From: Polytrichum commune
Taxonomy: Eukaryota; Streptophyta; Polytrichopsida; Polytrichales; Polytrichaceae
NCBI GenBank assembly: GCA_950295325.1
Contig: OX485807.1
Location: forward strand, 14,163,001 to 14,227,000
DNA length: 64,000 nucleotides
Direction: 5' to 3'
The notes beneath the pieces are model-generated. The model worked only from the letters and a program-made list of their open reading frames with translations, searched no databases and was not told the origin of the DNA. A program made the position numbers and the translations under genes. The stretch's first letter is position 1, and the number at the start of each line of letters is the position of its first letter. Below, piece after piece: positions 38,053 to 59,624 of the stretch.

Positions 38053-41000
38053 TCAAGTACCTGTGAAGGTCATGCTAAACCCAGCTGAGATGGGGGCGGG
38101 GCTGCGCTTTCCATCCGTCACAAAATTGACGTCAAACACCGTTCCCGCAGCAGTCACCACAACGTTCGATCCGAACCCAGTGAGAGTGGTCACGAGCTTT
38201 CCATTCTGCCACACCCGGATATAGTCCAGGGCATCATAGCCGAGGGCGTAAATTCCAAACGTGAAGGTGACGGTCTTCTGAACGAAGTATTTGATTTGCC
38301 ACGTGCAGTTCTGGCCAGGGGCGTAGGCTTGCAATCCGACACCGTTGAAGAAGTAACCCCTGGAGATAGTTCCGTTAAGAACGTTAAGCTTCGTGACAGT
38401 CGCGGCGGGACATGCTTCTGCACACATCCATCGTCATTCAAGCAAATTCAATTTGATTTAGTGATTGAGGAAGTTATTATTCACATTGATCAATCTGAAA
38501 TATCGTAAATCGGGAGTGGCAGTCTGTACGAACCAACCTGTACACTGGTTCCTTGGAGGCAAGGGTTTAGGCATCCAACAAGGAACGAGTGTATGGATCG
38601 GTTCGCCCAAATCCAGTATGTACATGCTTGATTAGTACACCAAATGATTCTATTAGTGTGGGTGGGAGATTAGTCTGGAAATAGTTGATGTGAGGTTGGA
38701 AATTAAATGGGCCCAAGACCGGGGATCGTCCTTGAGATTTCCAACGAACACCTTGCGTTTAGGTCAAGGACAAAAGAAGCACATAAACTAAAATAGTCAT
38801 CACTCACTCAATTTTCTACAAAACAATCAATGTGGTTCACAATCCATTAAATGTAAAGATTTAATGTATCATGTAGCCACCATATTATGGTGTTGGTTCT
38901 TCTACGAGTTGGACTAGGTTTTTGTGTGATTCCATAACATGCATCCTAATTCACAATAATTAGAGGGCCCCTGAAAACTATTGGCTTCTTTCAAAGGTGA
39001 ACACCTCCAATAAGCGTGGACAATCCAACTTGCACTTATCTCCCCCAAGAGAAAAACAAAAAAAACAAAAAAAAAACCCTAGGTTCACATATGGTTAAAT
39101 TGAAAATATCCTCTTCACCCAGATAACCCCCACTATGACTAGGTGGGCCATAGACATGTGTAGAGATGCACCGGAAAATCATCCATCCAAGCTCTATTGT
39201 GACTTTAGGCTGCTTAGTTCCTTGCAAATCCCATGAAATTTGGGTTAAGGCCTTGGATTGAAGTCAATGACGGGCCCGTAACTTACATACTTTATTAATG
39301 ATATCGTAGAACCCACTTGACTAGATCTATCAAAATTGTAATACTAGTCAAATATGGATATTTGATGGTTAATTCAAGGTGAGATAATCTTTGAATACTA
39401 TATTTAATAAAATGGGGTCAATACCGTTCCACCACATATTGACACTACAATGAAGGTTCTTGGATGGTTTATAGACTTGAATGATGTTGGAAAACAACAT
39501 CTTCACATATGCTCATACTTTATCAGTATCAAAAAAGAAGAGAGTGAAAACCTCATTGTAGAGACCCGAATAGTGTTAAGAAAAATACATAATAAATAAA
39601 ACAATACCATTCCAACACTAGTTGAACCCTTAAAGGCGAAGAAGGACAAGGGAAGGACTCTATTGACCAAGTAGCCACCGATACCCGACTATACTAGGGT
39701 ACACGTTTACATTACAATGTGTTGATTTGGAACATGTGGATGGTTAAAATTATGTGTTGACAATCGTAACTTCACAAAGATGCCATCTGTACACGGGGAG
39801 GTCACTTCATTGTCAAGTTGACACCACGTGTGGACAAAGTTTGCTACCCCTATATTACATGCCATATATAATTTTAAAATTTATGATATTTTTTCTACAT
39901 ATACATAACCATTGATAGTATCTTTTGTATACTTTTTTGAAATTTTTGGTCATCTTTATTTTTTTTAGTAATTGTTTTAGTTCAATTTTGTGTCATTCTA
40001 GTTAGAAACGGTATGTTTTATGAAAAAAACAAATCATCAAATTTAGTTACGAATTTTTGAATATGTCATAGGTACTGTGTATATCTACTCATGAAAAAAA
40101 ATTGATAAAAATTTGACCCATTTTGGTGGTGCAACTTACCAAAAGAAGATTTTTTTTGGTCGCACGTGGTGTTCAACTTGACAAAGGAGTGATCTACCCG
40201 TGCATCTGTATGATGAAATCCACCACTAGAGATATACCCAAATATAGATTGTCTTCAATAATATGTTGAAGAACTTCAGGTAGATTTCGTTGTGGCCTTC
40301 AAATTTAGAGGTTAACAAGCCACCCTTTTAGGCGTGAGTTGAGAATTAACGTGGGATCTAGACTCTAGAGAATGAGTGTGGCCCAAACTCATAGGAGCAC
40401 AGTTTAGTGTGTGTACCTTCCGGTGCCAAAACGCAACCTTTGTTGTCCAAGCTCCACAGCTTCTGAACCAGGAACTGAGATCCGCCCACCCCGAACTGAT
40501 TGAAAGACACGTTTGTAACAGGATCTTTGAGCGAGCGCGGGTGGTCTCCGGCTACAAAGTTTTACAAGTGAAGACGTTGGATGTGTTGAAGTCAGGGTAC
40601 AAAATGGGGAGTTGGCAGTAATACCATTCCCCGGCCACATAGTTGTATTGGCAGAGGTCTGCGGTCTCGCTGTTTTCGCTAGTATTGTACCAGTAGGCGG
40701 GCATGGAAAAAGGGTAAGGATCGGCCGAAAGCTCCAGCAGCTCGTGCATGATGACACTGATCATGGAGTCGAGAGTGCCGTTTGGTGACACGGCCGCGTT
40801 CGGTGGAGTCCCTGGAATCAGGCCGGGGCGAAATACGTTGCAGGTCGCGTAGATGTTGTTCGCCGTCGGCAAGGGGACGAAGGAATACACCAAATTGTTG
40901 AGAGTGCTGTTGCACTCTGCAGTCAGGACATTGAATAGTTAACAACCACTGACAAATGTCATAGCGTCTCTGTCCTTCCCAAGGACGTCGTTGGTACTTA

Positions 41001-44000
41001 GGGGCTTTACCCTTGTTATATAGATTATGGCCCTTTCCCATCCGGTCTTAAGTAAAAGTGGCAGTGTTTGATTTGAAAAACAAAACTAAAAACTAAAAAA
41101 AAGACGCCCTCCCATTTCCAGAGCTAGGTTTGCATCTAACAGAAAAGCTTGGATTCTGCAAACTTTTCTAGTTATTTAGGACCTAAAAGTAACCGAGTCT
41201 GTACAATTGTTGTTTGTTTTAGACTGAATGTAGGGAGCAAAAAATGTCATGGGAGTCTTTGAGGCGACAATAACCAAAACCAACGCTTACAGGATGACGG
41301 CCCATGGGAGAGGAGCAACAAGACCAAGCTCTAGCCCTGCACACATGATACGTTTTGCTAAGCCATTCGCCATTGTGGTTCCCACCACCTGGATGGGGCG
41401 AGTGGTGGCGAAGGTGAACATATGGCTGTGGTGGTAAAGAGTAAATTTTGGTTAATACGTCTCACCACTTTCACCATATTCATCAGCTTCAGACTCCACG
41501 GTGTGAGGCGAAAGTGAAGACATATGCCTTCATGTGCGAGGCCTATCTATCTACATGGAACTTGGCAACAAAGTAGCAGGCCCCTGTAGCATCTGGAGAA
41601 GTTGATTAGGGCCAAGTTCCATGTGCCGGTCCCGGTCCGTTTTTTAAATGGGTGAGAAACGGGTGACATCATCCAAAAAATGGGTGATGTCACCCATTTT
41701 ATGGAGGGGTACTTCTATGTGGGGTGCCGGTTTTTTTCGATTTCCTACTTTCTAACTAAATTTGGTGAGTGATAAGACATGACACTTTATGAAGGTCACC
41801 GGCAATGAAGGTCATCTAGATTCTAAAAACATCATAAAATACATGGTTCCCTAGGAGTACTCCTCAAAAGAAGGGACTAGAAGAACAAAGTGGCCTTTAG
41901 TATCCAAGAGTGTACCCTAGGTGACCGGCTGATCCGGTCACTGGAGCTTTCTAACCGGCACATGCCCTTCTTGTGACCGTTAGGACCGCCGGTCCTTTGG
42001 GACCCGTTCTTGCACAACACAAAATGTGGGACACCCATCCATGGGGGGCACCGGTCCTTGGGTGAGAAGGATGGGCACATGGCACCACCCTCTTTTCACC
42101 GGCCCACCCATTTATTTTGAAAAAAACAGACCAAGACTGGCACATGGAACTTGGCCCTTAGTAGCATGGGTCTTAGAGCATGCCAGCTCACATGCAAATC
42201 ATGCTCAGCCTACATAAACATTTATGTGTGAACAACCAGCAGATAAAAGCAAAACTCTCTCTTAAAGCAACCACTTTACGATCAGTTGGGAATGGGCCCA
42301 TAGCGTATTACCCATATTCATCTGCAAGTCATACGATTAGGTGGGTTATGCACCCCTTCCCACCTGATTTTTGCATAACTTCACTTAGCCTAAAAGTTCA
42401 TGATAAAACCATGGCTTCCACACCATTGTTACTATCTAGTCCCGAGCCCAGTTGACAAAGGACGTGGCATGGTCTAAAAATAGATTTGTTAAGCCTTACA
42501 TACCAACCTTCCCAACGGTACCTAAAGATGAGGCAAGAATGTAGGACCTTTAAGAGTGTCGTCGATTAATAGCTTTTAATTTTAGTATCAAAGAGGATGA
42601 GAGCTCCCACAACAAAAATTGATGGTAAGGTAAATGATTGGTAACACATTTGGCCTTGCTTCCAAAAAGTATCCAACATAACATTGCTTGGTAAATAAAA
42701 CAATGAACATGTGTTAATGAGAACTACTTAACTAGGACCTACTTGAAAATCTCCATAGCAAGTAGCTTGTAGGTGCATCGAGATAGCCAGGGTGCCTCCA
42801 CCATAACCAAGAGAGTTATACCCAATTTTTGGAAAAAGACTTTGATTATTTGGTAAAGCCAAGTATGAAGATGGACCTTTATCCATTTACCTTCAAAGAG
42901 AGAGAATTATTGTATACAAGCGTACCTCAACATAAAGATTTGACCCCCTATGTTGTGGATTCATCTCTAACGACCTCAACTTGACAAAATCAGGGTCTTT
43001 AAACTAATTCCTCCTTCATGTATCAAGATTCTTTTTTCTTTTTTCTTTTTTTAACCTCCAAGAGACTGCACACTATTTGAGGTACGCTCATATACAATCT
43101 CTCTCTCTCTCTCACACACGTATGGAAATCAATCAATTTAATTCATTTATTCAGCCATTCTGGCATACCTGAGACACCTGTCACCGTGGAGTTGATGGAT
43201 ACGCAGCGGCTTAAATGGTAACCACAGAAAGGCAGGAACTTTTCCAAATAAGTGACGTCGGAGCCTGTGAGGACGAAGTAAACGCCTTGGGCATAATCTT
43301 CGGGTAGGTTGCCGCGAATAATTTCACCTAGAATGATCAGGAGTGGGTCGACAGACGAGTTGATAGTCTTGATAGGCTGGCCGGCGTCAACCTCCTGCAC
43401 CACGGTGACGTTGTTCGTAACGTATGCGGGTCGAGCCTGGCCGGGCACTCGCTGCTTGTATTTTGTCATCACCGTCCAGAGCTTGCTCAGATTGGGGAAG
43501 TCGGTGATGGGCACAGCCGGTGTGAGCGATGTCAGAGCCGTTCTTATGACGTTCTTCTCAGTCGCCGCCCACGCACCATACCATATGATGTAAAGGTGGA
43601 TTGGTTTCGACAGAACCTGCCATGCCGCACCACCCACAGCGTGACATTCGCTATGAGATTCAGATAGATACAGTATAAACGCCGGCTTCCGGAAGAGGAA
43701 GCATGAACGAAGTGCCTCTTCAACAGCAGCATATATAGGTTACTTCCCGTAGACATGAAGGAAGAGCAGCTTCTTCCCCGCCTTGTAACAACCTCAGAGA
43801 TTCTTTTTCCTTTTCTTTTTGTTATCTTGAGGAGATTATAATGCACAACCTTGGTGTTAGCGGGATTTCCCTGAAACCGGTTGGTACGGGAATTGCCGCC
43901 GTAATCACTACATTCTACCCGATTCAGTAGCCTAGATCCCGATATGGTAGTAGGTGGCAAAAATCTCTAAGGTTTTTACAAAAAATAAGTCACTTTCGCT

Positions 44001-44962
44001 CGGGATTTCCTAAGTTCTCGCTTCCTGCACACTCGGCTCCGTCCTCGTGCAAGGGAGCCTCAATTCAAGGATGTCCCTTGTTAAAGAGATTTATCCTATA
44101 CTTCGGCGACTAGTTATTGTCCTTGAAATGTGAATGCAAAGTCTCTTCGCCGGCAAGCTAAGTTACAATCCTGAAACATAAATGAAGAACCTCTTCGCCT
44201 GCAGACTAGGCTAGTCTCGTAAGACATGGATGAAGCATCTCTTCGTGTACATGCTATTGTTCTTATAAACGTCTTTTCGTGTACACGCTAGTGCCCCCAA
44301 ACTTGAATGATACAAGAGTCTTTTCATCCGCAGGCTACGACTAAATAAGGCCTCTTCGTCGGGGGCCGGGCTCGGCTAAATCTTATTTGCACCACAAGAC
44401 GTATTTGGAGCACCGCAAGAGTTGGCCGGTGGGTCAGTTGTGACCGATGAAGGTATGGGTTCGAAACCCCAAGAAGCCCCTTGAAAGAAAAGCTAGCGAA
44501 ACAAAGAAAACATTTCATCTCAATTCCTGAAAGTTGATTGAGACAAGTAAGAGACTTACCCGCTAGCTATGCATCTTTGAGGCTTTATTGAAAATTTAAC
44601 ATAAATTCTTTGCTAGTTAATGGCTGTCACTTCGTTGAGAGGAGGTGCTGATCACTATCTAAAACATCCATCAATACAAGTCACGGGTTTAGCTGGTTGT
44701 ATTTTCATGAACTCACCGGACCACCTTGGGACTTGAAGTTGATAATGGGTGGCCTGTATCTGGCAGCCATTTGCAGCGCCGTCAGGTTCGTCGCTGCGGA
44801 ACTGAGAAATCGTGGACCGCCATGTCGGTGAGGCGAATTTGCAACGTCAATGTCAACTAATTGCTGTGCATAGGCGAGTGCCAATCCTGTACAGCTGGTG
44901 AGCAGGATGAGCGATATCAGAGCCACTGTCGACACGATCCATGGCGGTGAATGTTGTCCCAT
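38053..44962 (-). CDS. Secreted EXORDIUM-like protein with C-terminal CUB domain (frameshifted)
   Basis: EXORDIUM/PHI-1 proteins are apoplastic and linked to growth control; CUB is an extracellular beta-sandwich binding module (family knowledge). Minus-strand exons are 44717-44962, 43169-43616, 40417-40916 and 38053-38417. Residues 1-33 form a signal peptide (MGQHSPPWIVSTVALISLIL onward). The EXO part (about 70-395) shows GGP|VLSKPIHLYIIWYGAW across the exon 1/2 join, GVYFVLTGSDV, FCGYH, DSMISVIMHELLELSADP, ADLCQYNY and FLVQKLWS. The CUB part (about 400-519) has GTISRGYFF, NCTWQI, YDALDYIRVWQNG and GFSMTFTG, with two cysteines. About ten NxS/T sites suit a secreted glycoprotein. One base appears to be missing in exon 3 at the T run 40560-40563. 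With one extra base the frame runs through to the CUB exon and the downstream splice phase becomes correct; without it the reading ends at a nearby stop. This is a sequencing error or a recent null allele. Confidence 0.85.
38528..38608 (-). repeat. 80-bp foldback hairpin, copy 1 (intron 3 of EXO-CUB)
   Basis: The left arm 'acgaaccaacctgtacactg' continuing 'gttccttgg' pairs with the right arm 'ccaacaaggaacgagtgtat' continuing 'ggatcggttcgccc', enclosing a loop around 'aagggtttaggc'. The reverse complement occurs with few changes at 53372-53455. Such a long near-perfect stem in two copies fits a tiny foldback element or a structured RNA source. Confidence 0.65.
41606..42160. mobile_element. PIF/Harbinger (Tourist)-like MITE with TTA target duplication
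   Basis: The element spans 41609-42157 (549 bp). The left end GGGCCAAGTTCCATGTGCC is the inverse of the right end 'ggcacatggaacttggccc', and similarity continues for about 45 bp to 'aaatgggtg'. It is flanked on both sides by TTA (41606-41608 and 42158-42160), the preferred target of PIF/Harbinger elements. The interior is rich in 'caccggtcc'-type repeats and shows no transposase. It lies in intron 2 of the EXO-CUB gene. Confidence 0.85.
44100..44345 (-). repeat. ~50-bp degenerate tandem repeat in EXO-CUB intron 1
   Basis: Five loosely matching units share the pattern 'gaatgaag..tctcttcgcctgcaggcta'. They centre near 44135, 44185, 44230, 44270 and 44315. A further copy in the opposite orientation lies upstream of the gene at about 45127-45165 ('aggcgaagaggctcctcatt' then 'catgcttggtccgcagg'). 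Shared motifs in intron and promoter could be regulatory, but only the repetition is seen. Confidence 0.5.
44420..44475 (+). mobile_element. Possible tRNA-derived SINE head in EXO-CUB intron 1
   Basis: The text 'gttggccggtgggtcag' (A-box-like) is followed at 44458-44470 by 'ggttcgaaacccc', a near-consensus B box. The spacing of about 35 bases is like that in tRNA-derived SINEs. Acceptor and anticodon stems do not form convincingly, so this is not a tRNA gene. SINE origin is inferred. Confidence 0.35.
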
Positions 44963-57320: not shown

Positions 57321-58127
57321 AGTCCAAAAAATTAGCTAAAGCAGGACGCGCCAAAGGCCGCAATGCTGATGTGGAATATAATCTGGCCAAGCAGGTCGAG
57401 AAGCACATATAAATGTTCATTTCCAATATTTTATCCTGCTGTCTCACTGCTAGAATAAAATTGCTCTTGTGAATGCAGGTTGGGGGCAGCAATCCAGAGA
57501 CTAACTAGTCTTTGTTTAGTGCTTAATGAGATGGAGCCTTTGCGTGTCTTCAACCACACGTTTGTACCACGGGAGGTACATGTTTCTGATGACCTGGGTG
57601 ATATGTTTTATGTGGTACAGGGAAATTCACTAGACAGGCAGCTGAAGTTGCAACTGCTGAGTGCTTAAATAGTTTTGAAATCATCTGTATAATTTGTGCA
57701 TTCTGGTTCCATTGATGTGGTTGCAGTACTTGAGGGATCGAGTTGTGAAAAACTTTCGGACATGGTTAGCTAGTATAATTATGGTGGATGGTGATCTTCA
57801 ACGACCATCTGTAGTGGAGGCTGCAGCGACACATGAGCATCTTGTGGAACAACATGTACAGTTGGACCTAACACGAGGTGTGTGGGAGGTTCCCCTAACT
57901 GAGTCCTTTGCACGTCATATGCAAGACTTGCACCCTGATGATCGAGAAGTTGGAGCAGGTGGTGATGTTGTGTGCACAATCACAGATTGGTATGTGGAGA
58001 ACTTGCTAAAAGATGGAAAAGCTTCAGGAGTCATATTCTCTCCCTTGGATAAGTGTTTTAGAAGCACAAGGCCTATTGGACGTGTGGCTGCAGAATCGGT
58101 TGCAGATTTAGCGCAGCTGAAGGCAAT
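57321..58127 (+). pseudogene. Truncated NAP1/HEM gene fragment (SCAR/WAVE complex)
   Basis: NAP1 is a subunit of the SCAR/WAVE regulatory complex that activates ARP2/3 actin nucleation. Three pieces can be read on the plus strand. Piece 1 (57321-about 57412) has KKLAKAGRAKGRNADVEYNL and AKQVEKH, then a stop. Piece 2 (57479-57575) has AAIQRLTSLCLVLNEMEPLR and FNHTFVPRE before a splice donor. Piece 3 (57727-58127) has YLRDRVVKNFRTWL, LVEQHVQLDLTRGV, ITDWYVENLLKDG, CFRSTRPIG and ESVADLAQLKAI. The order matches the plant NAP1 sequence as I remember it, but residues between pieces 1 and 2 are missing and similarity stops abruptly after piece 3. The intron between pieces 2 and 3 is retained, so it is a DNA-level copy, not a retrocopy. 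The full protein is far larger (over 1000 residues), so this is a non-functional fragment. Confidence 0.75.
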
Positions 58128-59624
58128 TATGTTGGAATGTCCCCTGTATAACTTCGTTATAAATAAGTCTCCCTCATTATTTGAGAATGTAGTTCTACAT
58201 AACACTATTTATATCCATAATAATGTTCTATGGAATATTTCTCACATTCGGTCCCACATATCATTGTTATGGATCCAAATAATGTTATGTAGGAAGCTTC
58301 AAGTATTTCTTTTAATTGGACCATCAGGTTGACATTGACGTCTATCTCATAGAGGCGGCCACACTATGTCATTCTAGATAATTAGCTAATTGAAACCATC
58401 ATGATGTATTTCAATCCCATTAGCCTTTTTGGCTTCCTAGACTTCAAAATCAATTTCATTTCATAGACCACTAGGGGATTTAGGATGTTGGATCCAATGC
58501 TCATATATTCATCTAGTTTTGGAAACATGGACAACTCAATTGTTTTGTGAACAATTCTAACTTTACAAAGATGCTTACAATCGGTCAAATCTATCATTAT
58601 GCCATGCTGATTTACTTTGATAAGTTGTTGAATTGGACTACACCAAATATGATATTTAGTGTGACTTTCTATTTGGATGTACATGGTGCTATATCTTTTT
58701 ACTATTGGAATAAATTTTTACCAAGTAAAGATGTCAATGTTCTATAATGTCCCAACCATGAATCTAACATTTGTTGGTAAAATATGAGATGTATAGTGAA
58801 TAGATAAAGCATTGCATAATTCCAAATAGTAAGTCACACTAAATATCATACTTAGTGTAGTGTTTTAGGCAATTTTGGGGGCAATTTTGGGGAGATTTCA
58901 ATTCAGCCTTTACAGAGGGCTTAAATCGTATGCATAGTTGCAACAGGCTGGGACAGGACAGGCCCATACTAGTTCATTTGGATGTTGATTTAATGTGGCC
59001 TATTGGTTGTGCACACCCTCCACATTCTATGCCTCTGAGATGGTTCAGCCCACAGTGGTTCATTGATGCACGGTTAGAACTTAGTGTGGAACATTAATCA
59101 CAATCCTATACCTAGATAACTGAGATGGCAGAACTTTTCAAAGTCAAACTTACTCAAGTATGCTTTCCATTCTGAAAGGCCTGTGACATTCCAATAATTT
59201 CCATAAAGCCCAGCAATCTTGCATACAGGTTGCAGTGTACAGTAGATAAACTAGCCAATGAACGTAGGTACAAAGAAACCCCCAAACCCTTGACCCACCA
59301 CCAACTTGCAATTTACTCATCAAACTGAGTATCCTTTTCTTAAAAAGAATGATATCCTTTGCTGAGTTCCACATCTAAGAATGGCTGTCTTTAGATCTGC
59401 ATTCATTACTTCAGGTATGCCAAAAACAATGCTGTCTGTGTAACCCTCTGGACCAACCTGCTTGCTCCTTTACAAAGTACTCTTCCATATCAAGGAAAAG
59501 ACTCCAATGTGTGACACCAACAAAATAGGAGAATTCCTACTGAAAGGCCCCAAATATTTTAGTGGAAGTTTTCATTAAAATACAGAAAATTACTTTCTGA
59601 TGAGAAATTCTAACCGAAAGGCTC
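58128..59624. other. Spacer between NAP1 and RRP43 fragments
   Basis: Apart from the inverted-repeat element at 58638-58860, no feature was recognised. The left part continues an open frame past the NAP1 similarity (to 58332), but those residues show no family resemblance and are read-through. The right end may contain the 3' UTR of the minus-strand RRP43 copy. Confidence 0.45.
58638..58860. mobile_element. MITE, ~60-bp inverted ends (ctacaccaaatatg family)
   Basis: The left end 'ctacaccaaatatgatattt' continuing 'agtgtgact' is the inverse of the right end 'agtcacactaaatatcatac' continuing 'ttagtgtag'. Weaker pairing extends inward for another 30 bp ('tatttgga'/'tccaaata'). Total length is 223 bp. 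It shares ends with 20704-21006 and its interior with 16125-16290, so it links the two sets into one non-autonomous family. Confidence 0.7.

Follow-up and report, generated by a model that had tools for sequence, protein, structure and literature searches.

The 64,000-nucleotide stretch of the Polytrichum commune genome analysed here (contig OX485807.1, positions 14,163,001 to 14,227,000; hereafter the window) carries a gene in which a domain of the EXORDIUM (EXO) type, Pfam Phi_1, is followed by a CUB domain. EXORDIUM is a plant cell-wall growth protein, and CUB domains are best known from animal proteins. The gene is probably a member of a moss-type family of secreted two-domain proteins, each comprising a signal peptide, a divergent domain of the EXORDIUM type and, at the C-terminus, a CUB domain that would act as a binding module. 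As judged from sequence, this EXO-CUB family is a real multi-copy family of about 20 loci in the genome and includes the window copy.

Searching the genome with Phi_1 returned 37 rows, 13 of which fall to 12 canonical EXO genes and 24 to 22 divergent loci, and the CUB exon of the window gene found 23 matches including itself, the other 22 at E ≤ 6.7e-4. Twenty of the 23 CUB matches sit at most 10 kb downstream of a same-strand EXO match, and 20 of the 22 divergent EXO loci have a same-strand downstream CUB match within 10 kb. The 21st divergent locus (L057, C5:27924076) retains a CUB remnant of 35 residues, and the 22nd (L056, C6:26748910) shows no CUB in the ~4.9 kb looked at. The first-pass annotation of the window had proposed an EXO-CUB protein and held that the EXO proteins of flowering plants stop at the end of the EXO domain; the former is borne out as a family of about 20 loci with Phi_1 and CUB on the same strand, and the latter agrees with the canonical EXO genes of this genome, none of which (0/12) has a CUB match within 200 kb. 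A one-off fusion or a chance CUB match is ruled out by this number of paralogous loci, and contamination by the position of the window on a 53-Mb scaffold (C5), where it also holds a Nckap1-like exon. Three CUB matches lack a nearby same-strand EXO match, one of them lying 3 kb from an opposite-strand EXO-CUB gene. Run against the whole genome, PF00431 hit two places only, both EXO-CUB genes; as most CUB exons of the family itself went undetected, CUB genes that lack EXO may have escaped this search.

In an unrooted tree of 33 rows the EXO-CUB sequences form one clade with support of 100/99, the canonical sequences being grouped at 99/95 and the bacterial ones at 100/99; L025 (broken), L048 (long insert) and L066 were left out. 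An earlier tree and motif comparison had been made with three canonical genes only, leaving out L002 (the same gene as L058), L025 and L048. The locus counts include copies with identical match scores, namely a locus on C46 that equals one on C3, and two inverted pairs on C2 and C7. These EXO-CUB pairs (C2:40362392-40389332 and C7:41550215-41581552), whose members lie ~26-31 kb apart, suggest recent inverted duplications or assembly palindromes.

The coordinates and minus strand that the first-pass annotation gave to the window gene were upheld, and its parts are as follows (a slash marks the splice site).

44962 to 38053, minus strand: window EXO-CUB gene, four exons.
44717..44962, minus strand: exon 1, with the start codon, a signal-peptide-like stretch (~44873-44962) and the conserved YRPPIINF..GGP; donor CCG/GTGAGT, phase 0.
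43169..43616, minus strand: exon 2, first (N-terminal) half of the EXO/Phi_1 domain; acceptor CAG/GTT, donor CAG/GTATG.
40417..40916, minus strand: exon 3, second (C-terminal) half of the EXO domain, frame-broken; donor GAAG/GTACAC.
40732..40746, minus strand: HELLE motif, the HExxE site in common with bacterial EXO homologues.
38053..38417, minus strand: last exon, carrying the CUB domain and the stop codon; acceptor TGTGTGCAG/AA, which is in phase 1 across the family.

The introns of this gene measure 1,100, 2,252 and 1,999 bp and all three have GT-AG ends. Exon 2 alone matches Phi_1 in Pfam (E 9.4e-13, 48.6 bits) and exon 3 contains weaker Phi_1 pieces, in line with the EXO/PHI-1 domain first proposed. 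Exons 1 and 2 are 61% and 71% identical, respectively, to their counterparts in the paralogue L017. As for the signal peptide, a hydrophobic N-terminal stretch is indeed present and may be one.

Gene models were built for 14 paralogues, with L026, L031, L034, L035, L056 and L057 left out; the splice sites were picked by eye from splice contexts, a caveat on the models. Thirteen of the models are full-length, with 504 to at least 609 residues comprising a signal-peptide-like stretch, EXO and then CUB, whereas L025 has a stop in EXO; the sequence of L018 was taken only up to a limit of 600 nt. In all 14 a hydrophobic stretch lies close to the N-terminus, and each has 2-13 N-glycosylation sequons. 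Pfam was run on ten of the 13 full-length models, and every one scored above the Phi_1 cut-off (83-139 bits versus 25). The frame is uninterrupted at the EXO/CUB border in 13 of the 14, and the border intron, 112 to 2,215 bp long, is in phase 1 in all of them. One alternative, already raised in the first-pass annotation, is that the CUB exon is part of a separate downstream gene. In the window this exon does lie 2 kb from exon 3 and out of its frame, but the 13 full-length models read through the border, where the introns can be as short as 112 bp (L017), 135 bp (L019) and 177 bp, and an EXO match on the same strand precedes 20 of the 23 CUB matches. Judged by gene models and not by transcripts, the family argues against a separate gene, which we consider extremely improbable.

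The intron nearer the 5′ end varies by subgroup, being in phase 0 after GGP or in phase 2 inside the tryptophan codon of WYG, and is at neither place in L032 and L033. The border intron is shared more widely than this one, which fits a single fusion before the family spread. The matching phase that the first-pass annotation had ascribed to the CUB exon holds for the border intron of the 14 models and fails in the window copy, which joins out of phase. Exon shuffling, the fusion route then suggested, is possible; the gene ends with the CUB exon and so offers no intron phase on its far side for comparison.

That this exon encodes a CUB domain is supported by Pfam, where the window exon lies above the cut-off for both CUB (PF00431, E 1.6e-4, 22.4 bits versus 21.4) and CUB_2 (PF02408, E 6e-5, 23.2 bits versus 23); trimmed to the exon proper, it scores 22.6 bits with PF00431 and 22.9 with PF02408, the latter just under the cut-off. 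Across the family, CUB was matched by 15 of 15 exons at E ≤ 0.05 and CUB_2 by 12 of 15, and all ten full-length models submitted match a CUB model at E ≤ 0.02. A profile (A1) made from the alignment of the 15 family exons was searched against the PDB and found cubilin (E 3.9e-12 for the whole chain with its four CUB stretches, 2.7e-3 for the best single one), PCPE-1 (6.3e-10 for the whole chain, 2.2e-4 for the best single stretch) and MASP-1 (1e-5 from one stretch), as well as Kremen and neuropilin; we take 30 of the 31 rows at E ≤ 1 to be CUB-bearing proteins. All sequences in A1 keep the first cysteine pair (C2 and C37), and the conserved C..Y.PG..C.W.I..F..DYI.V follows the CUB order. This search took the place of a single-sequence PDB search of the CUB exon, in which the top rows were WD-40 proteins owing to a short repeated stretch (cubilin there had E 2.9e-4).

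Several observations count against the CUB assignment. The curated CUB cut-off is clearly passed by three of the ten full-length models and equalled by a fourth, a marginal result. The second CUB cysteine pair is absent from the A1 alignment, which thus lacks the two-disulfide pattern, and alignment with cubilin places a glycine of the family opposite the glutamate usual for calcium binding in CUB domains; CUB domains with one cysteine pair exist. A single-sequence AlphaFold2 model of the window CUB domain is an all-beta fold of nine strands, and weak (predicted local distance difference test, pLDDT, 60.8; predicted template modelling score, pTM, 0.62). Structure searches with it ranked GOLD domains best (Z 9.2), with carbohydrate-binding enzymes or modules (CBM35/36/6-bearing proteins) also among the best rows, and CUB proteins came lower (Kremen Z 7.1, enteropeptidase 7.0 and neuropilin-2 6.7; C1r/C1s at Foldseek rank 44). 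Such rows, together with the fact that the strongest PDB profile E-values add up several CUB repeats per chain, would fit another beta-sandwich, either a GOLD domain or a carbohydrate-binding module. With Pfam CUB matches in every family exon, a MASP-1 match that needs a single stretch, and a block order that is that of CUB, we judge a non-CUB identity to be improbable and retain the CUB assignment.

The window copy does not consist of the four in-phase exons first described. When exons 1-3 are joined as bounded (246+448+500 nt), the frame stops within exon 3, at a TAG at 40554-40552. Only a different frame, from 40561 onwards, stays open over the last part of the EXO domain, and the CUB exon does not continue the upstream frame in phase. 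L017, the closest paralogue (83% identity in CUB), is open through this point. As it reads, the window copy is frame-broken, by either a recent break or an assembly error, and unless the latter applies it probably no longer makes the CUB part. A single place in the genome matches the window CUB exon at 100%, so there is no second copy to arbitrate an assembly error. Rescue of the frame by an extra intron is formally available from 38 GT..AG pairs within exon 3, the shortest 41 nt; no paralogue support for it is known and it is not proposed.

Ratios of non-synonymous to synonymous substitution rates (dN/dS; dS, the synonymous rate) between the window gene and L017 are 0.22 for the 258 EXO codons that precede the break, 0.17 for the 47 that follow it and 0.17 for the 120 codons of CUB, and L017 versus L018 gives 0.23 and 0.17. 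The window gene has been under past constraint on both sides of the break, with dN/dS near 0.2; during most of its separate history after the split from L017 it was constrained as an EXO-CUB gene. Not all values show such constraint: exon 1 of the window gene and L017 gives 0.74 (78 codons), and the two youngest pairs tested show little, with 0.92 in EXO (dS 0.10) and 0.29 in CUB for L022-L023, and 0.57 in EXO and 0.46 in CUB (dS 0.02) for L029-L030. Selection on EXO in L022/L023 appears relaxed or changing, and HExxE is lost in L023.

Whether the window copy is a pseudogene or a maker of a truncated EXO protein, such that only its paralogues inform on EXO-CUB, is an evenly balanced question. 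The TAG and the shift of the remaining EXO sequence into another frame favour this, as do an extra intron with a high-copy repeat and the presence of other broken members (a stop in L025, a large insertion and frame breaks in L026, and a CUB frame break in L031 and L034). Set against it are the low dN/dS after the break and in the CUB exon, the intact splice sites, CUB exon and HELLE motif, and a base-level assembly error that may account for the break.

The extra intron is described by two further features.

40917..43168, minus strand: intron 2, 2,252 bp, within the EXO domain; donor CAG/GTATG, acceptor CTGACTGCAG.
41606..42161, strand not assigned: 556-bp repeat inside intron 2, with inverted ends of ~38 bp and TTA on both flanks.

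The 14 paralogue models all lack an intron at this place, and L031, which was left out of the models, is interrupted ~15 residues upstream of it. Intron 2 is a candidate intron gain. The repeat has at least 39 other near-full copies in the genome at 96-98% and resembles a young miniature inverted-repeat transposable element of the Tourist/Harbinger type.

Beyond the plants, nine bacterial homologues of EXO (L041-L049) all match Phi_1 in Pfam, with one weak transglutaminase row and nothing else, and all but L049 carry an exact HExxE, after which come [DN]P and E..D.C. The exact motif is found in 11 of 14 EXO-CUB members, being missing from L019, L020 and L023, and in 3 of the 11 canonical EXO genes readable there (L059, L062 and L064, which read HExxE..NP..E..DLC), with eight lacking it; for the twelfth, L066, the one exon read lies outside the site. 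HExxE as a mark of EXO-CUB alone is ruled out by these three genes, and a functional split within plant EXO proteins, between those that keep the motif and the others, is possible. A viral collection yielded six EXO relatives, four of them with HExxE, and no confirmed CUB relative. Among these, L050-L053 are EXO/Phi_1 homologues with HExxE on IMG/VR contigs that could be misbinned bacterial DNA.

The motif bears on a further reading, in which EXO is a metzincin-fold metal-binding enzyme or former enzyme with an HExxE site, and EXO-CUB parallels the animal tolloid/BMP1 arrangement of a protease followed by a substrate-presenting CUB domain. Beside its occurrence in bacterial, EXO-CUB and some canonical proteins, this draws on an AlphaFold2 model of the bacterial L045 (nine sequences; pLDDT 65.8, pTM 0.74), for which Foldseek placed ADAM33, ecarin, ADAM17/TACE, ADAM10 and fragilysin at the top (best E 2.1e-3). 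TACE aligned to it with Z 8.0 (rounded) in VIA-align, at a root-mean-square deviation of 4.3 over 170 aligned residues, and the HExxE helix ends at H+7, as the metzincin helix does. No Foldseek match of this model reached E ≤ 0.001; of 1000 chains counted, not one attained Z ≥ 8 with the whole model, and a Z near or under 8 may reflect a common arrangement. The model, moreover, has a low mean pLDDT and represents a bacterial homologue and not the plant protein. The metzincin zinc site HExxHxxGxxH/D was not found in EXO, which has HExxE, with Glu in place of the second histidine, and no conserved third His. A profile comparison of EXO with a shallow set of seven bacterial reprolysin-type sequences gave no signal (probability 0.06%), an eighth locus, L068, having been dropped as no metzincin motif was found in it, and three EXO-CUB members have lost the motif. 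A metzincin-like EXO fold is a weak lead only, and we doubt the enzyme reading. Somewhat less likely still is the bolder proposal that non-flowering plants independently evolved a tolloid-like plan, in which a secreted, metal-binding EXO of metzincin fold that kept the bacterial HExxE gained a CUB domain choosing a substrate or wall ligand; if true, EXORDIUM proteins would descend from enzymes and have an active site open to testing.

The reading that we favour is the secreted two-domain protein with a binding CUB module. Starting from the domains, gene structure, single clade and past constraint observed here, we infer its secretion, location, binding and activity. The fusion was most likely one event that preceded the spread of the family. 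The protein would be exported to the apoplast, where the EXO domain would carry the growth or wall activity of the family and the CUB beta-sandwich would bind a glycan or protein, so tethering or targeting the EXO domain. We know of no biochemical activity of EXORDIUM, and EXO-CUB, with its added binding module, gives a way into the binding partners or action of the EXO domain: most members keep HExxE, which is absent from 8 of the 11 readable canonical paralogues. The family is also a record of CUB domains in a land plant, where almost all of those detected here are joined to EXO.

Elsewhere in the window, 57679-58332 is an exon of a Nck-associated protein 1 homologue (Pfam E 2.7e-16), which we take to be a member of the SCAR/WAVE complex. 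On the same scaffold, 14 LHC matches with identical scores are clustered within 95 kb (C5:1751760-1846160). An LHCII gene of the genome matches 9vfj best, followed by 8htu and 7xqp, both Physcomitrium entries. Seven scaffolds of 42-78 Mb make up 406 of the 408 Mb, a number in keeping with seven chromosomes in Polytrichaceae mosses.

The first-pass annotation knew of no described EXO-CUB protein, and this holds as far as the literature searched, where no paper pairing EXORDIUM with a CUB domain, or PF04674 with PF00431, was among the matches listed. The term 'CUB domain' is absent from the text of PMC12820192 and PMC11840003, 'cub' does not occur in that of PMC8792609, and its five occurrences in PMC13103426 are all digital object identifiers of journals. 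For Marchantia, 'CUB domain' led to one polyphenol-oxidase paper, in which the term probably means the copper-B domain. PMC13103426 presents EXORDIUM as a poorly understood effector of brassinosteroids in cell expansion, and PMC8792609 reports 18 EXO genes in Marchantia, with 10 in the wall proteome. For Physcomitrella patens, the available part of PMC8481617 gives 17 EXO genes and a clade V made up only of P. patens (9) and Selaginella (2) sequences. Clade V is, like EXO-CUB, an EXO clade from outside the angiosperms, and that part of the paper does not mention CUB for it; going by the text and not by sequences, the two may be the same group.

Compared with canonical EXORDIUM/EXORDIUM-LIKE proteins (PHI-1, PF04674), EXO-CUB is alike in its N-terminal hydrophobic stretch, single Phi_1 domain and conserved block order. 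It differs from the canonical EXO of the same genome, which has no CUB match nearby, in its second, C-terminal domain, its border intron and its own clade. With the bacterial Phi_1 proteins L041-L049 it shares Phi_1 (9/9) and HExxE (8/9); no PF00431 match was found in their nine genomes, and control genomes also gave none, so absence is not established. Unlike animal CUB proteins such as cubilin, PCPE-1, MASP and tolloid/BMP1, EXO-CUB has its CUB domain joined to EXO, as a single C-terminal copy without the second cysteine pair, and it shares with them the CUB core, the first cysteine pair and the DYI.V strand.

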